Below, piece by piece: positions 49,539 through 64,000 of a DNA stretch of 64,000 bases. The DNA is from Microbacterium sp. HD4P20 (GTDB lineage: Bacteria; Actinomycetota; Actinomycetes; Actinomycetales; Microbacteriaceae). A program made the translations under genes and the position numbers. Under the pieces are notes generated by a model. It did no database searches and was not told the origin of the DNA. It saw only the letters and a list, made by a program, of their open reading frames with translations. Positions within the stretch are counted from its first letter, which is position 1. Every line of letters begins with the position of its first letter. The stretch lies in assembly GCF_019449275.2 (NCBI RefSeq), contig NZ_JAHZQZ020000012.1, positions 372,001 to 436,000 on the forward strand, in the 5' to 3' direction.

Positions 49539-51017
49539 TCAGGGCGCGGGAGGGACGTCGTCGTCGTCGGTGCGTGTTCGCGAGCGCCGAGCAGACGGCG
49601 TCAGTTCGATCCGCAGGGCGCGGAAGTCGGCTCGGCGCAGGCAACCCCACCAGACACCGGCGCCGTATGCCACATCGTCCAGCCGCCGTGCGACGGCGAA
49701 CCGCACGAAGTCGAGGTCGGCCCGCAGCCGGCGGTGCTCGACGACGGCGTCGACCACCGCCATCGTGCCGATGATCCATCGCGCCCGGCGTGAGACCGCG
49801 GCGGCCACCGCGGCCAGCGGCCACCAGTGGCGCAGCGCCAGGGCCGAGGTCTGCGTCAATGCACCCAGCACGCCGCCCCCGGCCAGCCGCAGTGGAAGGA
49901 TGCGCGTGCCCTCGCCGGTGCCCAGTCTTCGCGAGAGCCGCCAGGCGGTGGCGAGCGCGACGGCCAGCGCCGCGGGCACCGACCACCACCGTGCACACAA
50001 CAGCAGGACCACGACCGACGCCGACCACGGGCGCAGGATGGCCGGCGGGATCGCCTCGGGATGGCGGGCAGCCAGCGCCGCCGCGCCCGTGCCGTAGAAC
50101 AGCTTGCGGGCCAGCCACGGCCGCACGTAGGCCCGATGCTCGTGCGAGACCGTGACGGTCGGGTCGTAGCGCACGCGCCAGCCCGCCTCGGCGAGGCGCC
50201 ACACCAGGTCGACATCCTCACCGACCCGCATGCCGTCGGTGAAACCGCCGCCCAGTGCCTCGCGACGCGCGACGAGGCACGTGCTCGAGAGCCACGCCAC
50301 CGGCGATCGGGGTCGCACGAGCGCGTGCCTGCGGCCCAGGTCCACCGACGACCGGGTGTTCTCGTACCGCTCGATCCAGGTGCCGTGTCGGGGGATCCCG
50401 GCGACGCGCGGCCCGATCAGGGCCAGTCCGGGATCGCCGAAGTGCCGCAGCATCCGCTCCACGTCGTCGGGGGTGAGAGTGACGTCGGAGTCGACGAACG
50501 CGACGAACGGGGTCGTGGCGATGGCCAGTCCTCGATTGCGTGCGCTCGCGGGGCCGACGTTCTCGTCCAGACGCAGCAGCTGCGCTCCGCCGCGGGCGAC
50601 GACGTCGTGCAGGGCACGCGCGTCCCGCTCCGGCGTGCCGTCGTCGACGACCACGACCCGCATGCCCGCGAGGCCGGCGAGCAGCCGGGCCAGTTCACGG
50701 GGCCGCCCGTAGACGGGGATGACGACGGTCACCGTCTCTCGTCCGATCGGCGGCAGCGACGCCGGGTCGGGGTGGGCGATCCCCGCATCGACCAGGCGCG
50801 CCACCAGACGCATGGAGGCGGGATCGGATGCCGCGATACGGCCGTCCTGGATCAGCCCGGCGGCCATGGCGCTCAGGCGCATGACCCGCGTCGGCGCACC
50901 GCCGACCAGCATGCGGCCGCGGTCGTACCGCCAGACATCCGCTCCCACGACGGCGACGGTTCCTCGGGGCAGCTCCTTGTCGTGCGGCTGGGGCGATTCC
51001 CGCTCGGCAGGGGTCAT
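49539..51017 (-). CDS. mftF: Mycofactocin glycosyltransferase (MftF)
   Basis: A 492-residue protein. An N-terminal domain of about 90 residues, typical of MftF, is followed by a GT2 glycosyltransferase domain (TVVIPVYGRPRELARLLAGL, RNRGLAIATTPFVAFVDSDV with the metal-binding DSD, then GEDVDLVWRLAEAGWR). The C-terminal part has hydrophobic helices (about residues 330-420). MftF adds beta-1,4-linked glucoses to premycofactocin. It overlaps the MftE-like gene by 4 bases (ATGA), as in mft clusters. mftA-D are not present in the window. Confidence 0.87.
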   Translation of the reverse strand: MTPAERESPQPHDKELPRGTVAVVGADVWRYDRGRMLVGGAPTRVMRLSAMAAGLIQDGRIAASDPASMRLVARLVDAGIAHPDPASLPPIGRETVTVVIPVYGRPRELARLLAGLAGMRVVVVDDGTPERDARALHDVVARGGAQLLRLDENVGPASARNRGLAIATTPFVAFVDSDVTLTPDDVERMLRHFGDPGLALIGPRVAGIPRHGTWIERYENTRSSVDLGRRHALVRPRSPVAWLSSTCLVARREALGGGFTDGMRVGEDVDLVWRLAEAGWRVRYDPTVTVSHEHRAYVRPWLARKLFYGTGAAALAARHPEAIPPAILRPWSASVVVLLLCARWWSVPAALAVALATAWRLSRRLGTGEGTRILPLRLAGGGVLGALTQTSALALRHWWPLAAVAAAVSRRARWIIGTMAVVDAVVEHRRLRADLDFVRFAVARRLDDVAYGAGVWWGCLRRADFRALRIELTPSARRSRTRTDDDDVPPAP

Positions 51018-51709
51018 GAGCGCCCGGTCGGCGTGCGGAGGGCGGCGGCGAGCTCGTCCGCCATGCGCTCCACGAGAGCGGCGCCTTCTGCCGCCGACGC
51101 GCCGCGAGGATCGCCGAGCACGCCGTTGGGCGCGAGCGGGCGAACGCCCTCCTGACGCAGACGGGGCAGCAGGTCGGCGACGGGATCGACGTTCCCGCGC
51201 TCGGCCCGCTCCATCGCCACGCGGTCCGGCGCGAGGTGGAGCAGCAGGCTCGTCTCGCCCCGGCCGGCGTGCGCGTCACCGTGGCGGCAGGCCTGCCACG
51301 AGGCATCCGTCCCCTCCTCGCGCAGCTCCCGCACCGCGGCGGTCAGTGCCTCGACGTTGCCGCCGTGGCCGTTCACGAACGCCAGCCGCGGTGCCCAGTT
51401 GCGTGCCGAGCGCCCCACCTCGATCAACACGCGGGTGAGCGCCTCGGTGCCGATCGACACCGTGCCCGGGAAAGCCTGGTGCTCGCCACTGGAACCGTAC
51501 GAGATGGCCGGACAGACCCGCACACCGCTGCCGAGCCGGAGCGCGGCGGCGTGCGCGACCGCGACGGCGATGACGGTGTCGGTGTCGAGCGGCAGGTGGG
51601 GTCCGTGCTGTTCGGTCGAGCCGACCGGCACGAGGAGCGTCAGCCCCTCGGGGATCGCGGGCCACGGCGCATCGGCGAGCACGGGTGCCGGCGATGTGGC
51701 GGAGTGCAT
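51014..51709 (-). CDS. mftE: Mycofactocin precursor peptidase (MftE, creatininase family)
   Basis: A 231-residue creatininase-fold peptidase. The metal-site motif is VGSTEQHGPHLPLDTDT (Glu33, His35, Asp44), with NGHGGNVEAL and GDAHAGRGETSLLL downstream. In mycofactocin synthesis it releases the modified Val-Tyr dipeptide from MftA. The creatininase family has other members, but coupling to MftF and the divergent MftR/MftG genes makes MftE the best call. ATG 51709 is 80 bases from the divergent regulator start. Confidence 0.85.
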   Translation of the reverse strand: MHSATSPAPVLADAPWPAIPEGLTLLVPVGSTEQHGPHLPLDTDTVIAVAVAHAAALRLGSGVRVCPAISYGSSGEHQAFPGTVSIGTEALTRVLIEVGRSARNWAPRLAFVNGHGGNVEALTAAVRELREEGTDASWQACRHGDAHAGRGETSLLLHLAPDRVAMERAERGNVDPVADLLPRLRQEGVRPLAPNGVLGDPRGASAAEGAALVERMADELAAALRTPTGRS

Positions 51710-51764
51710 GGGCTACTGTCCTCCTTGAGAGTCGCCGCGCGTTTCCGGTGTGCGAGGAGTTTAC

Positions 51765-51779
51765 TGGCATCGAGTGCCA
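51765..51779. promoter_or_regulatory. Possible MftR operator
   Basis: TGGCATCGAGTGCCA has inverted TGGCA/TGCCA arms and lies between the divergent mftE and mftR genes, 10 bases before the regulator's ATG. It is a single copy; binding is inference. Confidence 0.4.
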
Positions 51780-51789
51780 TAGAGAAGGG

Positions 51790-52425
51790 ATGCCCGTGGT
51801 CGTTCCGGCGCCTGCCGCACCGCGCCCGCGTGGTCGTGCGAGGTCGACATCCAAGGACGAGCTCGGCCGCATCGGCCTCGATCTCTTCATAGCGCACGGC
51901 TTCGACGCCATCACGGTCGACGACATAGCCGCCGCGGCGGGCATCGGACGGCGCACCTTCTTCCGGTACTTCCCATCCAAGAACGACGTGGCGTGGGGCG
52001 ACTTCGAGCGGCTGCTGGACGCCTTCCGTGCGGCGCTGACGGGCACCCCCGCCGAGGTGCCGCCGATCGAGGCGATCCGCGCCGCCGTGCGTCGGTTCAA
52101 CGAGGTGCCCGAGGACGAACTCGACCGCCACCGCCATCGCATGCGGATTCTGCTCGAGACCCCCGAGCTGGTCGCCCACTCGACCGTTCGGTACGCGGAA
52201 TGGCGTGCCGTGATCGCCGACTTCATCGCGCGACGACGCGGTGTGCCCGCGCACTCGGCGCTTCCGCAGGCGGTCTCGTGGGCGTGCCTGGGCATCTCGC
52301 TCGCCGCCTACGAGCAATGGCTCGCGTCGGACGATGACCTGCTCGACCTCATCGACGTGTCGTTCGCGGGCCTTCGCGACGTGTTCTCGGACGTCGCGCT
52401 GACCGGAGGCTCACCGGGCTCATGA
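51790..52425 (+). CDS. mftR: Mycofactocin TetR-family regulator (MftR)
   Basis: A 211-residue TetR regulator. The HTH is within ELGRIGLDLFIAHGFDAITV followed by AAGIGRRTFFRYFPSKNDVA, close to the MftR form. The ligand domain is all-helical (RRFNEVPEDELDRHRHRMRI, then WACLGISLAAYEQWL). MftR proteins respond to acyl-CoA. ATG 51790 directly abuts AGAAGGG, so GTG 51796 with better spacing is possible. It overlaps the GMC gene by 4 bases, forming an mftR-mftG unit. Confidence 0.82.
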   Translation: MPVVVPAPAAPRPRGRARSTSKDELGRIGLDLFIAHGFDAITVDDIAAAAGIGRRTFFRYFPSKNDVAWGDFERLLDAFRAALTGTPAEVPPIEAIRAAVRRFNEVPEDELDRHRHRMRILLETPELVAHSTVRYAEWRAVIADFIARRRGVPAHSALPQAVSWACLGISLAAYEQWLASDDDLLDLIDVSFAGLRDVFSDVALTGGSPGS

Positions 52426-53933
52426 GCACTCGCCGCATCGTCGTGGTCGGCGCAGGAGGCTCGGGCATCCCGCTCGCGGCGCGGCTCGGTGCGCTCGGCC
52501 ACGCCGTGACCCTGCTCGAGGCCGGGCCGCTGCGCGCTGCGCTGGGCGACTCGGAAGCCGAGCACGGGCTCGAGCACGCCTGGACCGTGCGAGAGGGCCT
52601 GCCCGGCGGCGCGCTCACCTGGACCTATGACGCCGAGCTCTTCACGGGCCGACCATGGCGTATCGCGCGCGGTCGGCTGCTCGGCGGAAGCACATCGGTC
52701 AACGGCGCGTACTTCCAGCGACCCCACCCCGACGATTTCGCCGGATGGGCGGCCGTCGCGGGTCCGGAGTGGAGCTACGACGCCTGCCTGCCGGCGCTGC
52801 GCCGACTCGAGAGCGATCGCGACTTCGGCGGCGACGCCGTGCACGGCACGACGGGCCCGATGCCGGTGGAGCGCACCGGGGGCTCGGAGCGGGTGACGTC
52901 GGCGTTCCTGGACGCCGCACTCGCCACGGGCGCACGCCCTGAGACAGATAAGAACGCCGGCGGGCCGTCGGGGGCCGGGCTTCTGCCACGCAACGCGGTC
53001 GGCCCCGCACGCTGGGGTGTGGCCCGTGCCTACGAGAGCCTGCTGGCCGCGGCATCCGTCGAGATCCGTGCCGGCGCACTCGTGCGACGCATCGTGTTCC
53101 GGGGCGACGCTGCGGTCGGCGTCGACGTGGCGGTGGGGGCAGAGACGTCGTTCATCGGGGCGGACGAAGTGATCGTCAGTGCCGGCGCCGTCGAGACGCC
53201 CCGGCTGCTGCAGAGATCGGGGATCGGGGATGCCTCGGCACTGCCCCCTGACGTCAGGCTCGTCGCCGACTCGCGGGGTGTCGGTCGCGGACTGTCGGAC
53301 CATCCTGCCCTCGACATCGCGTGGGAGCCGCGGCCCGGCGTGGTGTCCGCCGAGCTGCACGCCGCGTGGACGGCCGCCTGGAACGCGCCCGCCGGCGAGG
53401 TCGCCGACGCCGGTGTGGAGCTGCTTCTGGCCGCGAAGCCGACGGCGGCGATCCTGAGCGGCCGCGCGACGGCGGTGGGCCCCCTCGACCTGCGGATCAC
53501 GCTGGCCGAGCCGCTCGCACGCGGACGGGTGACGGCCGAGCTGATCAGCTACGACTATCTCTCCCGCGGCGAGGACGTGGCCGCACTGCGGGCCGCAACG
53601 CGCGCGGCGGCGCGGATGCTGCGGTCGGAGCCGATGCGCGGGGTGGTGGCATCCGACGCCGTCCCCGAGTGGGTCGACTCGGTGGCGCACCACGACGCGG
53701 CCGAGCAGTGGATCCGCAGCGCGCTCGGGACGGCGCTGCATTCGTGCGGGACGGCACGCATGGGCGACGGCGACGATCCGGATGCCGTGACCGACGCGCA
53801 CGGCCGCGTGCACGGCGCGACAGGCCTGCGGGTCGCCGACGCGTCGCTGCTGCCGGCAGTGCCCTCGCGTGGCACGGCCTTGACCGCGGTATTCGTGGGC
53901 GAGCGCGTCGCCGAGCTGATCGCCTCCGAGTGA
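52422..53933 (+). CDS. mftG: GMC-family flavin oxidoreductase, MftG type
   Basis: A 503-residue GMC flavoprotein. FAD motifs are VVVGAGGSGIPLAARLGALG at the start, GRLLGGSTSVNGAYFQRPHP, and the C-terminal HSCGTARMG with GLRVADASLLPAVPSRGTAL. The residues HHDAAEQWIRSALGTALHSC contain the catalytic His. MftG reoxidises mycofactocinol and passes electrons to the respiratory chain in mycobacteria. The call rests on the mftR coupling and mftE/mftF neighbours; other GMC oxidases are similar. An IclR-type operator begins just after its stop. Confidence 0.82.
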   Translation: MSTRRIVVVGAGGSGIPLAARLGALGHAVTLLEAGPLRAALGDSEAEHGLEHAWTVREGLPGGALTWTYDAELFTGRPWRIARGRLLGGSTSVNGAYFQRPHPDDFAGWAAVAGPEWSYDACLPALRRLESDRDFGGDAVHGTTGPMPVERTGGSERVTSAFLDAALATGARPETDKNAGGPSGAGLLPRNAVGPARWGVARAYESLLAAASVEIRAGALVRRIVFRGDAAVGVDVAVGAETSFIGADEVIVSAGAVETPRLLQRSGIGDASALPPDVRLVADSRGVGRGLSDHPALDIAWEPRPGVVSAELHAAWTAAWNAPAGEVADAGVELLLAAKPTAAILSGRATAVGPLDLRITLAEPLARGRVTAELISYDYLSRGEDVAALRAATRAAARMLRSEPMRGVVASDAVPEWVDSVAHHDAAEQWIRSALGTALHSCGTARMGDGDDPDAVTDAHGRVHGATGLRVADASLLPAVPSRGTALTAVFVGERVAELIASE

Positions 53934-54064: not shown

Positions 54065-54919
54065 GTGGCGATCGACGAGCTCGGCACCGTGCCCGCCGTG
54101 TGGGGCGTCATGAACTACCTGTCGGAGGAGTCGACGGTGCTGCGGCGCTTCACCGCGCCAGGCAGGAGCGTGAACACCGGGCTCTACGACTCGTATGCGG
54201 TGCAGGTCTACGACGCGCGGGCTGTGCATCGCCCCTTCACCCTCGAGCGCAACGGGTTCGAGCTCGTGCACCGACCCACGCGCGTGGAGGACTTCACCGA
54301 TCGCGACGAGATCGCTCGCGTCTATGACGCCGAGATCGAGGAGTTCGTGCGCCTGCGGCTGGGTGCCGACCGCGTCGCGCTGCTGGGTGCGACGCTGCGG
54401 CGCGCCGCCGACCCCGGCGCGCACGACTCGCAGCCTGCTGCCGGCCTGGTCCACATCGACTTCTCACCCGAAGGGGCGGCCGCGCATGCCGCGGAGACGT
54501 ATGAGCGGCACTTTCCCGACGGCCCGGGGTATGCGCGAGCGGTCAGCACGAGCTGCTGGCGCGTCTTCAGCCCGCCGCCGCAGGACTGGCCGCTCGCCGT
54601 ATGCGACTTCCGCAGCCTGGGCGATGACGAGGGGCTGCCCAACACGCTTTACTTCGTCGACGCCATCCCGTCCGACCCGTTCGGCCCGATCGACGGATCG
54701 CCGCGCGCGCTCAGCGGATCGGAGTTTCACTACCGCCCGTCGCACCGTTGGTACTTCTACCCCGACATGACGCGCGACGAGCTGCTGCTGTTCGTCCTTC
54801 ACGACTCCGACCACTCCCGCGCGTGGCGCGTGATGCATTCGGCCTTCCTCGATGCCGAGGCGCACGCCGCGTCGCCGCGGCACAGCATCGAGTACCGCAC
54901 CGTCGCGTACTTCCGGTAG
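54065..54919 (+). CDS. CmcJ/NvfI-family oxidoreductase
   Basis: A 284-residue protein of the CmcJ/NvfI/AsaB-like family. Family features are VHIDFSPEGAAAHAAETYER, CWRVFSPPPQDWPLAVCDFR, HRWYFYPDMTRDELLLF and the C-terminal PRHSIEYRTVAYF. Members in fungi and Streptomyces take part in natural-product modification, probably as metal-dependent oxygenases or desaturases. GTG 54065 follows GGGGGAGG with 7-base spacing. It is convergent with the IclR gene and is preceded by an IclR-type palindrome. It could supply the alcohol oxidised by the dehydrogenases downstream, but that is speculation. Confidence 0.8.
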   Translation: MAIDELGTVPAVWGVMNYLSEESTVLRRFTAPGRSVNTGLYDSYAVQVYDARAVHRPFTLERNGFELVHRPTRVEDFTDRDEIARVYDAEIEEFVRLRLGADRVALLGATLRRAADPGAHDSQPAAGLVHIDFSPEGAAAHAAETYERHFPDGPGYARAVSTSCWRVFSPPPQDWPLAVCDFRSLGDDEGLPNTLYFVDAIPSDPFGPIDGSPRALSGSEFHYRPSHRWYFYPDMTRDELLLFVLHDSDHSRAWRVMHSAFLDAEAHAASPRHSIEYRTVAYFR

Positions 54920-54931
54920 CGACGATGGTGC

Positions 54932-55768
54932 TCAACCCGCGGCGCTGGCTCCGGCGGGCGTGCGCCGCGCCGACGGGGCGCCGAGCGCGCGGGAGATCGC
55001 GCGCGCCGTCGTGGTGAGCGCGGGCAGCGCGGCACCGGGCGTCCAGCTCTCGCGGTGCAGCGTCACGCCGACCGCCGCGATCACACGGTCGCGGGGGCCG
55101 CGGATCGCCACGGCCACGGCGATCGCGTTGTGCGTGATCGACTCGTCCGCCACGGCGACGCCGGTGCGGCGCACGTCGGCGAGCACCCGGCGCAGCTCGT
55201 ACGGATCGGTGACGGTCTTCTTGGTGTACTTCTGCAGGGGGAGGGCGAGAACCTCGTCCTGGAACTGCTGCGAGGCGTGGGCCAGCAGTACCTGTCCGGT
55301 GCCGGTCGCGTGCAGCGGCCAGCGCCCGCCGAGGCGGCTGAGCACGTGCGCCCCGCCGCGTGCCCGCAGCGATTCGACGTACACGGTGTCGTGGCCGTCG
55401 CGCACCGCCAGGTGCACATTGGCGTTCATGGCGGCCTGCAGATCGCCCAGGTGCGGCAGCGCGACCTCGCGCAGGTGCATGCCCTGCGGCTCGAGGCAGC
55501 CCAGCTCGAGGACGCGCATGCCGATCGCGTAGCGGCCTTCGCTGGAGCGCTCGAGGGCGCCCCATTCGCGAAGCTCCCCGACGAGGCGATGAGCGGTGCT
55601 GAGGCTCAAGCCTGCGCGCCGGCTGATCTCGCTGAGCGTCAGCACGAGGTGGTCCTCGTCGAACGCCTCGAGGATCGCCAGCACGCGCTGCGCGGCGGTC
55701 ATCTGTCCGCTGTGCGCCGAGCGGCGCGAGCGGGCTGAGGGGGCGGACTGAATGGGATTAATGGTCAT
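54932..55768 (-). CDS. IclR-family transcriptional regulator
   Basis: A 278-residue regulator. The winged helix is residues about 24-85 (AAQRVLAILEAFDEDHLVLT, LSEISRRAGLSLSTAHRLVG). The GAF-like effector domain follows (LRARGGAHVLSRLGGRWPLH, then TGTGQVLLAHASQQFQDEVL). Start 55768 (MTINPIQSAPSARS) has GGAGG 10 bases upstream. Three TTCCGCCnGGCGGAA-type palindromes before the CmcJ-like gene, between iclR and the 80-residue gene, and between the SDR and alcohol dehydrogenase genes suggest that it controls the whole right-hand catabolic set. Confidence 0.92.
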   Translation of the reverse strand: MTINPIQSAPSARSRRSAHSGQMTAAQRVLAILEAFDEDHLVLTLSEISRRAGLSLSTAHRLVGELREWGALERSSEGRYAIGMRVLELGCLEPQGMHLREVALPHLGDLQAAMNANVHLAVRDGHDTVYVESLRARGGAHVLSRLGGRWPLHATGTGQVLLAHASQQFQDEVLALPLQKYTKKTVTDPYELRRVLADVRRTGVAVADESITHNAIAVAVAIRGPRDRVIAAVGVTLHRESWTPGAALPALTTTARAISRALGAPSARRTPAGASAAG

Positions 55769-56270: not shown

Positions 56271-57194
56271 CTACGGCGCCACCCACGAAGCGGGCGCTGT
56301 CGGCGCGGGCAGCCGGTTCTCTTCGGCGTACACCGGCGACGACAGCAGGAACGGGATCGCGGCCCCGCGGGGCTCATCGAGGGGCTCATCCGGGAACGCG
56401 GCCTCGATCGTCGCGTGACGCTCGGCCACTCCCGCCCGGAACTCGGGGTGGGTGAGGATGAACATGTCGCCGCGCAGGATGCCGGCCAGCACGCGCTCGC
56501 CCGCCTCATCGGCGCTCATGTACGGCTGCTCGCGGGCGGCCTCGGTGAACGCCGGGGGCGGCGGGGCGTAGCCGGACTCGCCGTACTGCGCGGGACGGTT
56601 GGACACCGCGGCGGCAATGTTGCTGTGGGTCGGTCCGGGGCAGTACGCCGCGACGGAGATGCCCTCGCCGAGCAGTTCGATGTGCAGCGCCTCCGACAGC
56701 CCGATCACCGCCGCCTTCGTCATCGAGTACAGCCCTGCCACGATCGGCATGAGGCCCGCCATCGACGACGTGTTCACGACGGCGCCGCCTTCTCCGTGGG
56801 CGCGGATCTTGGGCACGAACGCCTGGATGCCGTTGCCCACGCCCTTGATGTTGACGTCGATGATCCAGTCCCAGTCACTCGGCGTGGCATCCATGACGGG
56901 ACCGGTCAGCCCGATGCCGGCGTTGTTGACGAGCACGTCGATGCGACCGAAGCGCTGCTCGACCGTGTCGGCGGCCGCCTTCATCGCAGCCAGGTCCGTC
57001 ACGTCGACCTGCATCGCGTGCACCGCGAGACCGCGTTCGGCGAAGACCGCGGCGGTCTCATCGAGATGCGGGGCCGTGCGCCCCGTCACCACGACGGTCA
57101 TACCCGCGCGCGCGAGCGCCAGCGCGATGCCGCGCCCGATCCCACTCGACCCTCCCGTGACGACGGCGACCTTGCCCGAGACATCCTTCAACAT
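56271..57194 (-). CDS. Short-chain dehydrogenase/reductase
   Basis: A 307-residue classical SDR. The nucleotide motif is TGGSSGIG (13-20), NNAG is at 90-93, and the catalytic Ser144, Tyr156 and Lys160 are present (NTSSMAG, YSMTK). It has an extended C-terminus of about 60 residues. It lacks the insertion typical of mycofactocin-coupled SDRs, so ordinary NAD(P) use is likely. It is divergent from the alcohol dehydrogenase at 57375 with a degenerate IclR palindrome in between. Confidence 0.9.
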   Translation of the reverse strand: MLKDVSGKVAVVTGGSSGIGRGIALALARAGMTVVVTGRTAPHLDETAAVFAERGLAVHAMQVDVTDLAAMKAAADTVEQRFGRIDVLVNNAGIGLTGPVMDATPSDWDWIIDVNIKGVGNGIQAFVPKIRAHGEGGAVVNTSSMAGLMPIVAGLYSMTKAAVIGLSEALHIELLGEGISVAAYCPGPTHSNIAAAVSNRPAQYGESGYAPPPPAFTEAAREQPYMSADEAGERVLAGILRGDMFILTHPEFRAGVAERHATIEAAFPDEPLDEPRGAAIPFLLSSPVYAEENRLPAPTAPASWVAP

Positions 57195-57374: not shown

Positions 57375-58538
57375 ATGAGCACGACGACCAGCGCGGCCGG
57401 CAGCGCCGCCCCGGCCCGGCAGTCCGCCACGACGACCCGGGCGGTCGTGTGCCGGGCGCCGGGCACACCGTGGGAGGTCACCGAACTGGACTTGGACGAG
57501 CCTCGCGCGAACGAGGTGCGGGTCAAGGTGTACGCCGCCGGGCTGTGTCATTCCGACGACCACATCCAGAAGGGTGACGCTCCGATGCGGATGCCGGTGG
57601 TCGGTGGTCACGAGGGGTGCGGCATCGTCGACGCCGTCGGTGACGGGGTCACGCGCGTCAAGGTCGGCGACCGCATCGTCTTCTCGTTCATCCCGGCGTG
57701 CGGCAAGTGCCGCTACTGCTCGACCGGCCGGCAGAACCTGTGCGACGAGGGCAAGAACGCCTCGACGGGTGAGTTCTCCGACGGCACGTTCCGCTTCCGC
57801 CAGGACGGCGTGGACTTCGGCGGGCTGTGCGTTCTGGGCACGTTCTCGCAGTACACGGTCGTCTCGGAGTACTCCGTCGTGCCGGTGGCCGCCGATCTGC
57901 CGTTCGAGGTCGGCGCCGTGATCGGATGCGGCGTGCCCACCGGGTGGGGATCGGCCGTCCATGCGGCAGGCGTGCAGGCCGGCCAGACCGTCGTCATCTT
58001 CGGCGCGGGCGGCGTGGGCAGCAATGCCGTCCAGGGTGCGGCGCTCGCCGGCGCCGAGCGCGTCGTCGTCGTCGATCCGGTGCCGTTCAAGCGCGAGATG
58101 GCCGAGGTCTTCGGGGCGACGCACACGTTCGAGACCGCCGAGGAGGCGACTGACTTCGTCGCCGGATCCACGTGGGGCGAGCTCGCCGACCACGCGATCA
58201 TCACCGTGGGCGTGCTGCACGACAAGGTGATCCACGACGCGCTCAACATCGTCGGAAAGACCGGCCAGGTGACGATCACGGCCGTGGGCAACGGCTGGAT
58301 CGACGAGAACCCGGGCATGCTCATCGGCTTCCAGCGCCGCATCCAGGGCGCGATCTACGGGGCGTGCAACCCGCTGGTCGACATTCCGCGACTGGTGAGC
58401 CTCTACAAGAGCGGAAAGCTCAAGGTCGACGAGCTCATCACGCGGACGTACACGCTCGATGAGGTCAACCAGGGGTACCAGGACATGCTCGACGGCAAGA
58501 ACATCCGCGGCGTCGTCCTCATCGACCACGACAACTGA
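57375..58538 (+). CDS. NDMA-dependent (mycofactocin-type) alcohol dehydrogenase 1
   Basis: A 387-residue zinc alcohol dehydrogenase. Catalytic zinc ligands are Cys58 (GLCHSDDH) and His79-Glu80 (GGHEGCG). The structural zinc site is CGKCRYCSTGRQNLC (Cys109, 112, 115, 123). The cofactor site is VVIFGAGGVGSNAVQGA. It matches the NDMA-dependent group, whose tightly bound NAD is recycled by mycofactocin in place of free NAD. The first about 22 residues are an unusual Ser/Thr/Ala-rich extension. It heads the run with the aldehyde dehydrogenase and a second such enzyme. Confidence 0.88.
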   Translation: MSTTTSAAGSAAPARQSATTTRAVVCRAPGTPWEVTELDLDEPRANEVRVKVYAAGLCHSDDHIQKGDAPMRMPVVGGHEGCGIVDAVGDGVTRVKVGDRIVFSFIPACGKCRYCSTGRQNLCDEGKNASTGEFSDGTFRFRQDGVDFGGLCVLGTFSQYTVVSEYSVVPVAADLPFEVGAVIGCGVPTGWGSAVHAAGVQAGQTVVIFGAGGVGSNAVQGAALAGAERVVVVDPVPFKREMAEVFGATHTFETAEEATDFVAGSTWGELADHAIITVGVLHDKVIHDALNIVGKTGQVTITAVGNGWIDENPGMLIGFQRRIQGAIYGACNPLVDIPRLVSLYKSGKLKVDELITRTYTLDEVNQGYQDMLDGKNIRGVVLIDHDN

Positions 58539-58559
58539 TCCATCGCAGAGGACGAAGTC

Positions 58560-60044
58560 ATGACGATCACCACACCGAATCCGACCCTCACCGATTCGCT
58601 CCTCGTCGACGGCGCACAGCTGATCGGCGGCGAATGGGTGCCCTCGCACACCGCACGCACCATCGAGGTCATCAACCCCGCCAATCGCGAGCACCTCGCA
58701 TCCGTCCCCCGCAGCGACGCGAGTGACATCGATGCCGCGGTCGAGGCGGCCGAGCGCGCGTTCCCCGCGTGGCGCGACCTCAACGCCACCGCGCGGGCGG
58801 CGCTGCTGTTCCGGTGGGCCGCGCTCATCGAAGACAACCTGGCCGAGCTCGACCAGCTCGAATCGCAGGAGGTCGGGAGGCCGCACTGGGGACCGCCGCC
58901 GATGGCGGGCCAGCTGCGCTTCATCGCCGGGCAGGCCGACAAGGTGCAGGGCGTCTCGCTTCCCACCTACTCGCCCGACGCCCTCGGCTTCACGCTGCGG
59001 GAGCCGTACGGCGTGGTGGGTGCGATCATCCCGTGGAACGCGCCCGGCCCGATGTTCGTCACCGAGGTCGGCGCGGCGATCGCGGCCGGCAACACCATCG
59101 TGATGAAGCCCGCCGAAGACGCACCGCTGACGCCGCTCGCGCTGGCGAGACTGTCGATCCAGGCCGGCATCCCGGCAGGCGTGATCAACGTCGTCACCGG
59201 TTATGGGCACGAAGCCGGCGCTGCGCTCCCCGCGCATCCGCGCATCCGGCGCATGGGCTTCACCGGCTCGCCCTTCACCGGCTCTCTCATCATGGCGGCG
59301 TGCGCCGAGAACCTCACGCCGCTGCACCTGGAGCTCGGCGGCAAGTCGCCCCAGGTGGTGTTCCCGGATGCGGATCTCGACGTGGCCGTGCCGGCCATGG
59401 TGTCGGGCATCACGCTCAACACCGGGCAGATCTGCGCCGCCGGGTCGCGCGTCGTCGTGCTGCGCAGCGTCCACGACGAGCTCGTCGAGCGGCTGGCGAC
59501 CCAGATGCAGAAGATCACCGTCGGACCATGGAATCAGCCCGTCAACATGGGGCCGCTCATCAACGAGAAGCAGCACGACCGGGTGCTCGGCTATATCGAG
59601 GCGGGAAAGGATGCCGGCGCGGAACTGGTGACCGGCGGCGGGGTTCCCCGGGGCGGCGACTACGGCGACGGGTTCTTCGTCGAGCCGACCCTGTTCGACG
59701 GGGTGTCGCCCGATATGAAGATCGCCCGGGAGGAGATCTTCGGACCCGTGCTCTCGGTCATCGCCGTCGACGACGAGCGCGAGGCGATCGAGGTCGCCAA
59801 CGGCACCGACTACGGCCTCGTCGCGTCGGTGTGGACCCGCGACGTCGGCACCGCCATCCGCATGAGCCGCGCCCTGCAGGCGGGCCAGGTCGCGGTCAAC
59901 AACGCCCTCGGCGCCGCGGTCATCGGCGGCCCGTTCGGCGGCTACAAGTCCAGCGGCTTCGGCCGCACCATGGGCGCCGACTCGGTGCTCGAGTGGACCC
60001 AGGTCAAGACCGTGTCGATGCGTCCCGCGACGCCGACGCTCTGA
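58560..60044 (+). CDS. Aldehyde dehydrogenase
   Basis: A 494-residue NAD(P)-dependent aldehyde dehydrogenase. The general base is Glu258 (LELGGKSP) and the nucleophile Cys292 (NTGQICAAGS). Other signatures are VGAIIPWNAPGPMF and a C-terminal GGYKSSGFGR. It should oxidise the aldehyde made by the flanking alcohol dehydrogenases to a carboxylate. It starts 21 bases after the first one and ends 18 bases before the second. The substrate is unknown. Confidence 0.93.
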   Translation: MTITTPNPTLTDSLLVDGAQLIGGEWVPSHTARTIEVINPANREHLASVPRSDASDIDAAVEAAERAFPAWRDLNATARAALLFRWAALIEDNLAELDQLESQEVGRPHWGPPPMAGQLRFIAGQADKVQGVSLPTYSPDALGFTLREPYGVVGAIIPWNAPGPMFVTEVGAAIAAGNTIVMKPAEDAPLTPLALARLSIQAGIPAGVINVVTGYGHEAGAALPAHPRIRRMGFTGSPFTGSLIMAACAENLTPLHLELGGKSPQVVFPDADLDVAVPAMVSGITLNTGQICAAGSRVVVLRSVHDELVERLATQMQKITVGPWNQPVNMGPLINEKQHDRVLGYIEAGKDAGAELVTGGGVPRGGDYGDGFFVEPTLFDGVSPDMKIAREEIFGPVLSVIAVDDEREAIEVANGTDYGLVASVWTRDVGTAIRMSRALQAGQVAVNNALGAAVIGGPFGGYKSSGFGRTMGADSVLEWTQVKTVSMRPATPTL

Positions 60045-60062
60045 GAGGCAGGCAGTTCAGCC

Positions 60063-61193
60063 ATGGCAACCATCACCACACGCGCAGCCGTCGCGCACAG
60101 TCCTCACCAGGGGTGGGAGCTGACCGAACTGCAGCTCGACGATCCGAAGGAGCACGAGGTCCGCATCAAGCTCGTGGCGTCGGGTCTGTGCCATTCCGAC
60201 CACCACATCACCGAGGGAGACGCCCCTGTGCGCCTTCCGATCGTGGGCGGCCACGAGGGCGCGGGCATCGTCGAGTCGGTCGGCCCGAACGTGCGCCGCG
60301 TGAAGCCCGGCGATCGCGTCGTTCTGTCGTACATCCCCGCTTGCGGGGCCTGCCGCCCGTGTTCGACCGGTCACCAGAACATGTGCGTCAAGGGCCTCAA
60401 CGCCGGGACCGGCATGTTCCTCGACGGCACCTACCGCTTCCACCGCGACGGCGAAGACTATGGGGGGTTCTGCTCGCTGGGCACCTTCTCGGAGTACGCC
60501 GTCGTTTCGGAGTGGGCGGTCGTGCCGCTGCCCGGCCACATCCCCTTCACCGTCGCCTCGCTGGTCGGCTGCGGCGTGCCCACCGGCTGGGGGTCGGCGG
60601 TGTACGCCGCCGGCGTGCGAGCCGGCGACACCGTCGTCATCTTCGGGGCCGGGGGAGTCGGCAGCAACGCGGTGCAGGGTGCCCGCTTCGCCGGAGCCAA
60701 GGACGTCATCGTCATCGACCCCGTCGAGTTCAAGCGCGAGAACGCGCTGACGTTCGGTGCCACGCAGACCTTCGCAACGGCGCAGGAGGCGCACGACTTC
60801 GTGGTGTCGAGCACGTGGGGGCAGCTCGCCGATCACGCCATCATGACGCCCAATGCCGTCACCGAAGAGATGGTCAACGCCGCCGTCATGATGACGGGCA
60901 AGGGCGGCAAGGTCACGATCACCGCGGTGGGCCACCTCACCGAGAAGGCGGTGCACGTGCACGCCGGGATGCTGATCGGCTATCAGCGTCAGATCCGCGG
61001 CGCCCTTTTCGGCGACTGCAACCCGCTGTACGACATCCCGCGCCTGCTGCGGCTGTACGACTCCGGAGACCTGAAGCTCGACGAGCTCGTCAGTCGCACG
61101 TACTCGCTCGACCAGGTCAACGAGGCCTACGACGACCTCGTCGCGGGCCGCAACATCCGGGGTGTCATCGTCCACGACCCCGCGCTGGCCTGA
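60063..61193 (+). CDS. NDMA-dependent (mycofactocin-type) alcohol dehydrogenase 2
   Basis: A 376-residue close relative of the dehydrogenase at 57375. Zinc ligands are Cys43 and His64-Glu65, the structural site CGACRPCSTGHQNMC (Cys94, 97, 100, 108), and the cofactor motif VVIFGAGGVGSNAVQGA. The shared GCGVPTGWGSAV segment shows recent common origin or strong constraint. Two such enzymes around one aldehyde dehydrogenase suggest two alcohols, a diol, or heteromer formation. Confidence 0.88.
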   Translation: MATITTRAAVAHSPHQGWELTELQLDDPKEHEVRIKLVASGLCHSDHHITEGDAPVRLPIVGGHEGAGIVESVGPNVRRVKPGDRVVLSYIPACGACRPCSTGHQNMCVKGLNAGTGMFLDGTYRFHRDGEDYGGFCSLGTFSEYAVVSEWAVVPLPGHIPFTVASLVGCGVPTGWGSAVYAAGVRAGDTVVIFGAGGVGSNAVQGARFAGAKDVIVIDPVEFKRENALTFGATQTFATAQEAHDFVVSSTWGQLADHAIMTPNAVTEEMVNAAVMMTGKGGKVTITAVGHLTEKAVHVHAGMLIGYQRQIRGALFGDCNPLYDIPRLLRLYDSGDLKLDELVSRTYSLDQVNEAYDDLVAGRNIRGVIVHDPALA

Positions 61194-61242
61194 GCCGGGA
61201 CGTCCGTCCGCCCACGCGCACCGCTTTCAGGAAGGAATCCCG

Positions 61243-61791
61243 ATGCCCAACGCCATCCTCGATCCGACAGGTCGCGCGGCCGCCGCCGACGCGGCCTCGC
61301 TGGGTGGGCTCGCACCGCGGCGGGCAGACTTGCGCGGGGCGCGCGTCGGTCTGCTCGACAACACCAAGCACAACGCGATGCTGTTCCTCACCGAGGTGGG
61401 GCGGCTGCTGGTCTCGGAGCACGGCGCCGCCGACGTTTCGATCGTTGAGACCAAGGCGAGCTTCTCGGTGCCGGTGGGCGACGACATCGTGTCGCGCTAC
61501 CGGGAGGCCTGCGACGTCGTGATCACAGGGGTGGGTGACTGCGGATCGTGCAGCGCCGCCGCCGTGGCGGACGGGATCAACTTCGAGCGCGCCGGCATCC
61601 CCGCCGCAGTGGTGCTGACGGACGCTTTCCTCACGACCGGCCGGACGATGGCCCGCGTGCAGGGCGCACCGGACTACGAGTGGATCACCACTGAGCACCC
61701 GATGGCGGTGCTCGATCCGGCGCAGGTGAAGGCGCGCGCGCGGATGCTGCTTCCGCAGGTCGCTGCCGCGCTCGTCGGGGGCGGGCGATGA
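61243..61791 (+). CDS. UGSC-family protein (Cys form)
   Basis: A 182-residue protein. The motif VGDCGSCSAAAVADGI places Cys100 and Cys103 at the UGSC site, where some relatives have selenocysteine. The surrounding GVGD...DGINFERAGIPAAVVLTDAF is the conserved core. A redox or thiol function is expected, but the family is uncharacterised. AGGAAGGA (61229-61236) lies ahead of ATG 61243; the open frame extends upstream without a ribosome site. It overlaps the next gene by 4 bases (ATGA). Confidence 0.83.
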   Translation: MPNAILDPTGRAAAADAASLGGLAPRRADLRGARVGLLDNTKHNAMLFLTEVGRLLVSEHGAADVSIVETKASFSVPVGDDIVSRYREACDVVITGVGDCGSCSAAAVADGINFERAGIPAAVVLTDAFLTTGRTMARVQGAPDYEWITTEHPMAVLDPAQVKARARMLLPQVAAALVGGGR

Positions 61792-62858
61792 GCGCGCCGG
61801 CGGTCGAGGCCGAGCTCGACGCGGATGCCGCGCAGCGGGCGATCGAGCACTGCTACGAGCAGGGCTGGAGCGACGGGCTTCCACTCGTTCCCGCCACCCG
61901 TCCGCTGGTGGACGCGTTCCTCGCGGCCGCCGGCCGGCCCGCGGACGAGGTCATCGGTCACATGCCGCAGGTGGATCGTACGGTGAACGTCGAGCTCGCC
62001 GCGATCAACGCCGCGATGGCGGGTTGCCGGCCCGAGTACTTCCCCGTCGTGCTGGCGGCCTGGGAGGCGCTCATGCGCGAGCGGGCCGCAAAGGGCGGGG
62101 GCTGGCAGTCGACCAGCGGTCCGGCACCCCTGATCATCGTCAACGGTCCGATCCGCGAGCGACTCGGCTTCAACAGCACGGGCGGCGTGTTCGGGCCGGG
62201 GTTCCGTCCCAATGCCACGGTCGCCCGTGCGATCGGTCTCATCGTGCGCAACGCTTTCGGCGTGATTCCGCACGAGCTCGAACAGGCCACCCAGGGCCTT
62301 CCGGGTCGATGGTCGATCTGCTTCGGCGAGAACGAAGAGGACAGCCCGTGGCCGCCGCTCGCGGCCGAGCTCGGCGTCCCCGGCGACGCAGTGACCGCAA
62401 CCCTGCTGCGCACGTGCGAGTACGTCGACAACCGCCACACCAGCGACCCGGAGCAGCTGCTCGGCGATTTCGCCGACACGATCGGGCGGTCGGGCTCGTG
62501 GATCTTCCAGCATGCCGGTGCCGGCGTCGTGCTCTGTCCCGAGCACGCCGATCTGCTCGCGCGCGCCGGCTACAGTCGCGCGGACGTGCAGCGCTGGCTC
62601 GCCGAGCACTCGGGCCGCTCGACCGAGGCGCTGGCCCGGGCGGGGAAGGACTTCGCCGAGAAGGGCGTCCGACGCCCCGGCGACGGGACGCCCGGCGACC
62701 GCTTCCAGCGGACGATCCCCGAGGGCGCCGAGTCGAGCATCCTCGTCGCCGTCGCGGGGTCGCGGACCGCCGGCATCTCGATGGTCGTGCGCTTCTTCGC
62801 CGACTGGTCGGGCACCGGGGTGCCGATCGTGACCGCCGCGCCCGCGGATGCCGCATGA
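61788..62858 (+). CDS. Uncharacterised protein coupled to the UGSC gene
   Basis: A 356-residue soluble protein. Notable segments are AIEHCYEQGWSDGLPLVPAT near the start, LAAINAAMAGCRPEYFPVVL, GWQSTSGPAPLIIVNGPIRE, then FNSTGGVFGPGFRPNATVAR and RWSICFGENEEDSPWPPLAA. I recall such proteins near UGSC genes, but no reaction is known. The ATG overlaps the UGSC stop, so the two are probably made in equal amounts and may form one enzyme. Confidence 0.78.
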   Translation: MSAPAVEAELDADAAQRAIEHCYEQGWSDGLPLVPATRPLVDAFLAAAGRPADEVIGHMPQVDRTVNVELAAINAAMAGCRPEYFPVVLAAWEALMRERAAKGGGWQSTSGPAPLIIVNGPIRERLGFNSTGGVFGPGFRPNATVARAIGLIVRNAFGVIPHELEQATQGLPGRWSICFGENEEDSPWPPLAAELGVPGDAVTATLLRTCEYVDNRHTSDPEQLLGDFADTIGRSGSWIFQHAGAGVVLCPEHADLLARAGYSRADVQRWLAEHSGRSTEALARAGKDFAEKGVRRPGDGTPGDRFQRTIPEGAESSILVAVAGSRTAGISMVVRFFADWSGTGVPIVTAAPADAA

Positions 62859-62922
62859 TCGGCCCTCGCACTCCACGTACGGGCCGCATGCCGGCCGAAC
62901 ACCCAACGAAGGCGAGTCGCAG

Positions 62923-64000
62923 ATGACCCAGATGGTGCGTGCCGCAGTCCAGACCGGACCGCGAGCGATCGAGATGCGTGAGTTCGCGCGCCCGAAGGTA
63001 GGCGCCGACGACGGCCTGCTCCGGGTGGAGGCGAACGGCATCTGCGGAAGCGACATCGAGATCTACCGCGGTCACATCGGCACGAACCGGGACCCGTTCA
63101 TCCCAGGCCATGAGCCGATGGGGATCATCGAGGAGCTGGGCGATCGCGCCGCCGAGCGCTGGGGCGTCGAGGTCGGCGACCGCGTCGCCCTCGAGGTCAT
63201 CGTGCCGTGTCGCGCGTGCCACGACTGCCTCAGCGGCCGGTACCAGGCCTGCCGGTTCCGCAAGTACGGGCACGGCGTCACCGGCATCGACGTCGAGCCG
63301 AGCCTGTGGGGAGGTTTCGCCGAGTACCTCTACCTCTCGCCCAACACGGTGCTGCACAAGATCGACAAGACGCTGCCGGTGGAGATCGCCGCGATGTACA
63401 ACCCGCTCGGAGCGGGCGTGCGCTGGGCGGTCGATCTCGGCGAGGTCGGCCTGGGGGACTCGCTCCTCGTGCTGGGCGCGGGGCAGCGGGGCCTCGCGGC
63501 CGTCATCGCGGCGAAGGCCGCCGGCGCCTCCCAGGTGTTCGTGACGGGCCTGGAGAGCGACGCGCACAAACTCGCCGCGGCGCGAGAACTCGGGGCGGAC
63601 CACACGTTCGTCGTCGATGGCGACGATCCCGTGGATGTCGTGGCGGCGGTACACGATCTCACCGATGGCCGCGGCGTCGACGTCGCGCTCGAGGTGACGC
63701 CGATGGCGGCCAAGCCCATCACCGATGCCATGCTCGCGACCCGCCATGGTGGCCGGGTCGTGCTCGCAGGACTAAAGGGGCACCGCGAGATCCCCATCAC
63801 GACCGACCTCATCATCAATCGGGCTCTCACCATCAAGGGCGCCTTCGGCGTCGACTCGACCGCCAATAAGAAGGCCATCGCACTGCTGGAGTCGGGGCGT
63901 TTCCCGCTGGAGAAGCTGCACACGCACACCTTCGGGCTCGACCAGGTGGGTGTCGCGATCGAGACGCTCGCGGGCGAGACCGACGACAAGACCGCCATCC
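62923..64000 (+). CDS. Zinc-dependent alcohol dehydrogenase-family protein (cut by window end)
   Basis: A partial medium-chain dehydrogenase, at least 359 residues, continuing past the window. Catalytic zinc ligands are Cys41 (GICGSDIEIYRGH) and His63-Glu64 (PGHEPMG). The structural zinc Cys residues are 96, 99, 102 and 110 (CRACHDCLSGRYQAC). The cofactor loop VLGAGQRGLAAVIAAKAAGA is typical of the threonine/sorbitol dehydrogenase-like branch, not the NDMA-dependent one. It follows the UGSC pair after 64 bases and probably belongs to the same unit. Confidence 0.87.
   Translation, partial: MTQMVRAAVQTGPRAIEMREFARPKVGADDGLLRVEANGICGSDIEIYRGHIGTNRDPFIPGHEPMGIIEELGDRAAERWGVEVGDRVALEVIVPCRACHDCLSGRYQACRFRKYGHGVTGIDVEPSLWGGFAEYLYLSPNTVLHKIDKTLPVEIAAMYNPLGAGVRWAVDLGEVGLGDSLLVLGAGQRGLAAVIAAKAAGASQVFVTGLESDAHKLAAARELGADHTFVVDGDDPVDVVAAVHDLTDGRGVDVALEVTPMAAKPITDAMLATRHGGRVVLAGLKGHREIPITTDLIINRALTIKGAFGVDSTANKKAIALLESGRFPLEKLHTHTFGLDQVGVAIETLAGETDDKTAI

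Follow-up and report, generated by a model that had tools for sequence, protein, structure and literature searches.

The window analysed here is a stretch of 64,000 nt from Microbacterium sp. HD4P20 (positions 372001-436000 of contig NZ_JAHZQZ020000012.1, called C3 below, in a draft genome of 4.03 Mb and 22 contigs), and it carries four genes of the mycofactocin (mft) system. When its open reading frames (ORFs) were compared with Pfam and with NCBIfam profiles at their curated cut-offs, two overlapping genes on the minus strand (mftF and mftE) were found to diverge from two overlapping genes on the plus strand (mftR and mftG), with exactly the coordinates and strands of the original prediction (Table 1). 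Both pairs overlap by 4 nt (ATGA). The mftR gene likely starts at the ATG at 51790 rather than at the mechanical ORF start at 51685, and with this start the mftE and mftR start codons are 80 bp apart. Creatininase structures aligned with the mftE product in a structure-database comparison, and the mftR product also matched the Pfam family TetR_C_14 ('MftR C-terminal domain').

Table 1 Features of the split mft locus and of the genes between its halves (positions are those of the window unless marked C3)
Feature	Position	Strand	Evidence or remark
mftF, mycofactocin glycosyltransferase, 492 aa	49539..51017	-	TIGR03965, 434 bits (cut-off 280)
mftE, creatininase-family peptidase, 231 aa	51014..51709	-	TIGR03964, 300 bits (cut-off 172)
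mftE leader including start codon, ACTCTCAAGGAGGACAGTAGCCCATG	51707..51732	-	26 nt, motif scan
Candidate MftR operator 1, TACTGGCATCGAGTGCCAT	51762..51780	.	between mftE and mftR
mftR, TetR-type regulator, 211 aa from ATG 51790	51790..52425	+	TIGR03968, 244 bits (cut-off 224.9)
mftG, GMC-family mycofactocin dehydrogenase, 503 aa	52422..53933	+	TIGR03970 is the best family
CmcJ/NvfI-family oxidoreductase, first gene of inserted block	54065..54919	+	NF041278, 252 bits
IclR-type regulator beside cassette, start uncertain	54932..55735	-	IclR_C, HTH_IclR
SDR oxidoreductase of cassette	56271..57194	-	SDR families
NDMA-dependent (mycofactocin-coupled) alcohol dehydrogenase 1	57375..58538	+	TIGR03989, 508 bits (cut-off 440)
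Aldehyde dehydrogenase	58560..60044	+	many models; 0 of 25 over cut-off among the matches listed
NDMA-dependent alcohol dehydrogenase 2	60063..61193	+	TIGR03989, 510 bits (cut-off 440)
UGSC-family protein, cysteine form (CGSC motif), start uncertain	61162..61791	+	NF041046, 152.5 bits (cut-off 125); Pfam UGSC
356-aa family-less protein, partner of UGSC protein	61788..62858	+	conserved in 11 cassette genomes
Zn-type dehydrogenase	62848..64000 (end 64029, beyond window)	+	ADH_N, ADH_zinc_N
mftD	C3:443367-444606	-	TIGR03966, 680 bits (cut-off 470.85)
mftC, radical SAM maturase	C3:444607-445902	-	TIGR03962, 635 bits (cut-off 265)
mftB, chaperone	between mftC and mftA on C3	-	TIGR03967, 99.6 bits (cut-off 33)
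mftA, precursor, 36 aa	C3:446179-446289	-	TIGR03969, 49.6 bits (cut-off 25), match C3:446182-446250
Candidate MftR operator 2	C3:446346-446364		before mftA, second copy of same site

The mftDCBA genes lie on the same strand as mftEF, with the mftD stop 17.4 kb from the mftG stop and 7.4 kb beyond the right edge of the window, and both halves are inside a single contig of 612,751 bp. The original prediction had described a split mycofactocin locus without mftA-D, whose radical SAM part might lie elsewhere. The split proved real, with pathway families over their cut-offs on both sides of it, and mftC was located on the same contig. The absence of mftA-D was confirmed for the window, as their sole over-cut-off matches are all outside it, but not for the genome (C3:443367-446289), and is thus partly an effect of the window edge. 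The genome search proposed at the time, for mftC and a Val-Tyr-type peptide, recovered both: the C-terminus of MftA is IDGMCGVY, and the mftA ATG is preceded by a good ribosome site.

Genome-wide, exactly one match over the cut-off was obtained for each of mftA, mftB, mftC, mftD, mftE and mftF, and those of mftE and mftF were the genes of the window. Thus, the genome appears to hold one complete pathway in two pieces and no second pathway. The contiguity of mftABCDEF, which is usual and not required, is absent, the mftE and mftC matches being 21.1 kb apart. Additional matches below the cut-off (one for mftC, four for mftD and ten for mftF) were taken as ordinary homologues from large superfamilies; the same models also give sub-cut-off matches in control genomes without the system. 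A second mft cluster or a different peptide was considered as well and was ruled out by the single over-cut-off matches for mftA-F. The earlier suggestion that these genes process a different peptide therefore fails, since the sole MftA match has an ordinary end and mftC, mftE and mftF are single. A complete mftA-F cluster elsewhere, which had also been allowed for, was not found in the genome-wide search (mftA-F, not mftR or mftG).

When 247 Microbacterium genomes (including our own, G000) were compared, mftE was over the cut-off in 21 and mftC in the identical 21; the closest named match of mftE is in M. salsuginis (83 %). Gene order was compared using our own proteins as tblastn queries on the relatives' stretches. 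In G174 and G191 the order is murB, mftF E D C B A, mftR G, iclR, sdr, a catabolic gene cassette and aat. In G000, G074 and G091 it is murB, mftF E, mftR G, cmcJ, iclR, sdr, cassette, mftD C B A, four genes and aat, and in G222 murB, mftF E, mftR G, mftD C B A and aat, without the cassette. Between the same flanks (murB and aat in all six genomes), the blocks [mftDCBA] and [mftRG plus cassette] are therefore exchanged relative to G174 and G191, and no block is inverted. The exchanged order was observed in 4 of the 21 mft-positive genomes (G000, G074, G091 and G222, the split genomes below).

The distance between the mftE and mftC matches varied widely: 0.2-0.3 kb (G164, G168, G223), 1.4-1.5 kb (G132, G174, G191, G210), 3.4-3.6 kb (G142, G222), 6.1-8.1 kb (G051, G089, G109, G151, G217) and 21.1 kb (G000, G074, G091). 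The two genes share a contig in 17 of the 21 genomes and are on different contigs in G003, G026, G165 and G226. A loose mft cluster is thus not rare in the genus. In the 6-8 kb cases, most of the genes that surround mftD or separate it from mftC encode SDRs. A contig apart from both mftC and mftE carries mftD in G142 (G142:C3), G026 (G026:C4) and G168 (G168:C87), so other Microbacterium genomes may have mft genes dispersed in a different way. Fourteen named loci were also compared. Seven of them (L014-L018, L024 and L026) have mftA-E contiguous on one strand, so the canonical order is probably ancestral. The split locus of M. salsuginis is L013, the order is altered in various ways in L019, L020 and L021, and no mftC was shown in L022, L023 and L025.

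The 26-nt leader of mftE was scanned for in 26 sequence sets (about 0.93 million positions, up to 7 mismatches). It was found only before mftE in G000, G074 and G091 and before mftA in G174 and G191; five shuffled leader motifs gave 0, 0, 0, 1 and 0 matches in the same scan. In the first three genomes the candidate operator is followed by ...ACTCTCAAGGAGGACAGTAGCCCATG ahead of mftE, the ATG belonging to mftE. In G174 and G191 the same 26 nt, with one A/G difference, precede mftA (operator, then ...ACTCTCAAGGAGGACAGTAACCCATG), and mftE closely follows mftD without this leader. As mftE carries the leader of canonical mftA, it appears to stand now where mftA once started. The mftA gene of the split genomes has its own operator and a leader ending GCTTCAGAGAGGA..., compared with CTCTCAAGGAGGACAGTA near the start codon in the canonical leader. 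Just after the operator, the G091 mftA leader reads GTAAGCTCAC, compared with ATAAGCTCAC in canonical mftA leaders, and bases are shared.

The MftR operator of M. smegmatis was reportedly footprinted by Mendauletova and Latham's group. The candidate site in the gap from mftE to mftR has all 15 core bases of that operator. The window and L004, the stretch in which the cassette continues, each hold a single copy of the 19-bp string TACTGGCATCNAGTGCCAT, with 0 mismatches. Both copies are at mft promoters, 22.6 kb apart, and with up to 3 mismatches allowed the expectation for the 19-bp site is 0.04 matches in the window. At this tolerance only the two operators matched the long site in the window and L004, and no MftR site was found in the cassette. 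The footprinted site is given as 5'-TCCATTCTGGCACTCGATGCCATATAT in the available text of PMC8728441.

The operator core GGCA-N5-TGCC is present before mft units, and each split genome has two perfect TGGCAN5TGCCA sites, one before mftA and one between mftR and mftE. A scan of 25 mft loci (366,823 bp) gave 13 perfect sites, whereas 30 shuffles averaged 0.27 and never exceeded 2. Twelve of these sites precede an mft transcription unit, and one is inside mftF of G191. Separately starting mftD units also have the site, perfect in G089 and G223 and with one mismatch in G217, G164, G165 and G003. No site at up to one mismatch was found in the loci of G051, G109, G132, G151, G168 and G226. The G132 contig begins within mftA, and the mftA leaders of the other five carry forms like CGGCACTCGGTGTCA, with two mismatches.

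Phylogenetic trees were drawn for each half and for both together, G091 being entered as frameshifted fragments strung together. In the mftCDEF tree the four split genomes form a clade (support 1.000) beside G174, G191 and G132. Separate trees also unite them, with support of 0.997 for mftBCD and 0.989 for mftEFRG, next to G174 and G191; the placement of G091 in the mftBCD tree has a support of only 0.033. Because these two trees, made apart, agree, both halves seem to share one history. A horizontal gain of the mftABCD half from a distant lineage was rejected as the leading explanation on the same agreement over the split clade. As G222 is nested inside this clade and the cassette is beside mftG in G174 and G191, its lack of a cassette is most simply a loss.

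Taken together, we consider it highly probable that this is one complete pathway whose cluster was split in two. The split is best explained by tandem duplication and reciprocal loss, and both halves would have stayed under MftR. The block mftDCBA-mftRG-cassette would have been duplicated in tandem, after which mftDCBA would have been lost from the first copy and mftRG-cassette from the second. Through this loss mftE would have acquired the leader and start site of mftA, and each half would have kept its own copy of the bidirectional MftR promoter. Two daughter promoters are the expected outcome of a tandem duplication with reciprocal loss.

Alternatively, recombination or transposition could have moved mftABCD past the cassette in one cut-and-paste step, with the second operator copied along or evolved afresh. 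The final gene order and orientation would be identical, and close to its start codon mftA in the split genomes does have a leader that differs from the canonical one (GCTTCAGAGAGGA where the latter has CTCTCAAGGAGGACAGTA). However, all four split genomes have a perfect operator at both halves, and the G091 mftA leader shares the operator and following bases with canonical leaders, as duplication predicts; such a move is the less likely of the two. That the genes of the window are paralogues or remnants acting on another peptide, beside an independent mycofactocin cluster elsewhere, is hardly credible: the window itself is without mftA-D and MftG is under its family cut-off, but each biosynthetic family has one over-cut-off match (those of mftE and mftF being the window's), the candidate operator is common to both halves, and mftC and mftE occur in the same 21 of 247 genomes. 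An assembly artefact, which a draft of 22 contigs might suggest, can be dismissed almost entirely, as both halves are within one contig and the arrangement recurs in G074, G091 and, minus the cassette, G222.

Several observations weigh against duplication with reciprocal loss and a shared MftR switch. We infer the duplication and saw no intermediate of it, and a cut-and-paste move with a copied or new operator also fits the gene order. The mftE leader of G222 is without the 26-nt motif at up to 7 mismatches, and the G091 assembly is 68 % complete with many frameshifts. The mftG score (307 bits) is below the TIGR03970 cut-off of 387.45; the mftG of G174 (325) and G222 (309) likewise miss it, and those of G210 (469), G223 (405), G164 (397) and G226 (411) exceed it. 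As for the operators, neither of our sites has the published outer palindrome (T-N2-GGCA-N5-TGCC-N2-A), the best agreement over the 27-bp footprint is 19/27, and the 15-bp pattern occurs 4 times genome-wide compared with 6 for a reversed control. The stricter outer-palindrome pattern gave one match in the 25 loci (G165), away from mft genes.

Because of this 4 to 6 result, the ten fixed bases alone are not specific. A looser 15-bp scan with 2 mismatches was uninformative (10 rows in the window compared with 7.8 expected). The other two perfect sites of the genome (C3:170187 and C17:320083) were taken as chance; the former falls inside an ORF resembling a MocR-type regulator/aminotransferase. 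The case for the putative operators, made from sequence, is one of position, the long shared string and the known footprint, not of count.

MftB takes part with MftC in the maturation of MftA. If the roles of the enzymes are carried over from mycobacteria, MftB/MftC would mature MftA, MftE would cut it, and MftD and MftF would oxidise and glycosylate it, respectively. The two NDMA-dependent alcohol dehydrogenases in the cassette would pass electrons to the cofactor, which would be reoxidised through MftG. MftR would repress both halves via the two candidate operators and release both together. For mycobacteria, the accessible text of PMC11778925 states that the Val-Tyr core is matured by MftC and set free by MftE, that the redox-active form is the product of MftD, that MftF is the glycosylating enzyme, and that MftG hands electrons to the respiratory chain. 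The M. smegmatis MftR, according to the text available of PMC8728441, switches via one site and is released by long-chain acyl-CoA.

The layout in M. smegmatis and M. tuberculosis (Rv0691c-Rv0697) is mftR, mftABCDEF-mftG, as described in the portions available of PMC11778925 and PMC8728441. Our locus has the same A-F and R families, an MftA ending in IDGMCGVY and an identical 15-bp operator core. In contrast to the mycobacterial cluster, mftRG and a 17.4-kb cassette separate mftABCD from mftEF, mftE rather than mftA faces mftR, there are two candidate operators instead of one, and mftG adjoins mftR and scores under the TIGR03970 cut-off. G174 and G191 have the same genes, the same flanks and a cassette beside mftG, and are the nearest well-supported relatives in the trees, but there mftDCBA separates mftE from mftR, and it is mftA that has the 26-nt leader. 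G074, G091 and G222 share the exchanged order and the two perfect operator-type sites; they differ in that G222 has neither the cassette nor the 26-nt mftE leader and G091 is full of frameshifts. The mft genes were also moved apart or turned in Amycolatopsis (L019) and Acidimicrobiales (L020). Unlike here, mftC and mftE are 7.6 kb apart in the Amycolatopsis locus, which gave no match for mftD, and the Acidimicrobiales locus has mftDE and mftCBA on opposite strands.

The cassette between the halves occupies 57375-64000 in the window, with genes for the two NDMA-dependent alcohol dehydrogenases, the aldehyde dehydrogenase, the UGSC and 356-aa proteins and the Zn dehydrogenase, and continues beyond the window (L004:1-7316) with an ACMSD-like amidohydrolase and a peptide/nickel-type ABC importer. 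The CmcJ/NvfI-family gene of the inserted block is between mftG and iclR1 in G000, G074 and G091 and was not found in the stretches of G174 and G191. The cassette SDR scored only 133.5 bits against TIGR03971 (mycofactocin-coupled SDR; cut-off 300). For the 356-aa protein there was no NCBIfam match (1e-10), no Pfam match (0.001) and nothing useful in PDB. It always adjoins the UGSC protein in the cassette, and it might be the 'Unknown_1' domain, reported as fused to UGSC proteins in the available part of PMC2398784. In G174 and G191, just beyond aat (34-40 kb into the stretches), a second pair of UGSC and family-less proteins (41-42 % and 53 % identity) is accompanied by another peptide-type importer. 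Between mftA and aat (L004:10390-16910) we observed genes for an ABM-domain protein, an IclR regulator, a PaaK-like ligase and an aldehyde dehydrogenase; among the six murB/aat-flanked genomes, this set of four is only in G000, G074 and G091.

Cassettes were fetched where two TIGR03989 matches are about 2.6 kb apart (one of the pair is frameshifted in G091), and the search with cassette proteins covered the 11 genomes of the 247 obtained in this way. All 11 are mft-positive. In eight of them (G000, G074, G091, G174, G191, G223, G164 and G089) the cassette adjoins the mft locus or is within it, and in the other three (G217, G142 and G026) it is elsewhere. The fetched stretches of G217 and G026 stop before oppD and oppF. 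Among the 21 mft-positive genomes, 16 had TIGR03989 over the cut-off, compared with 1 among the 226 mft-negative ones (Fisher p 6e-20), in agreement with Haft 2011 (PMC3023750). The one mft-negative case, G123 (88 % complete, without an mftC match), has its NDMA-dependent alcohol dehydrogenase at G123:C4:67831-68937, and the stretch also holds an mftG-like GMC gene (55 %). A third over-cut-off NDMA-dependent alcohol dehydrogenase of our genome is away from the mft locus (G000:C16:93436-94545), and its neighbour aldehyde dehydrogenase is 56 % identical to the one near aat.

Tentatively, the cassette could be a mycofactocin-obligate catabolic module. The peptide/nickel-type importer would take up a substrate, the two NDMA-dependent alcohol dehydrogenases and the aldehyde dehydrogenase would oxidise it while mycofactocin accepts the electrons, and the UGSC-type redox protein, its family-less partner and an ACMSD-like decarboxylase would finish the breakdown. 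Such a module would travel with mft and dock at different sides; here the cofactor operon would have been rearranged around it, with both halves keeping their MftR switch. In the literature searched, no such module was described and nothing joined mycofactocin with UGSC or with Microbacteriaceae; the portions available held nothing on mycofactocin physiology in Microbacterium.

Judged by gene content, the mycofactocin pathway is complete and ordinary. Its arrangement is unusual and specific to this lineage, and the scar of the rearrangement can still be read. Partial windows or contigs can make mycofactocin pathways look incomplete, and caution is needed in such cases. If the proposed history is right, the locus shows how a cofactor operon can break up and yet stay in its regulon, each half with the same bidirectional promoter and the downstream gene mftE taking over the leader of the promoter-proximal gene. 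In addition, it draws attention to a catabolic gene set that is linked to mft in Microbacterium and has a testable substrate.

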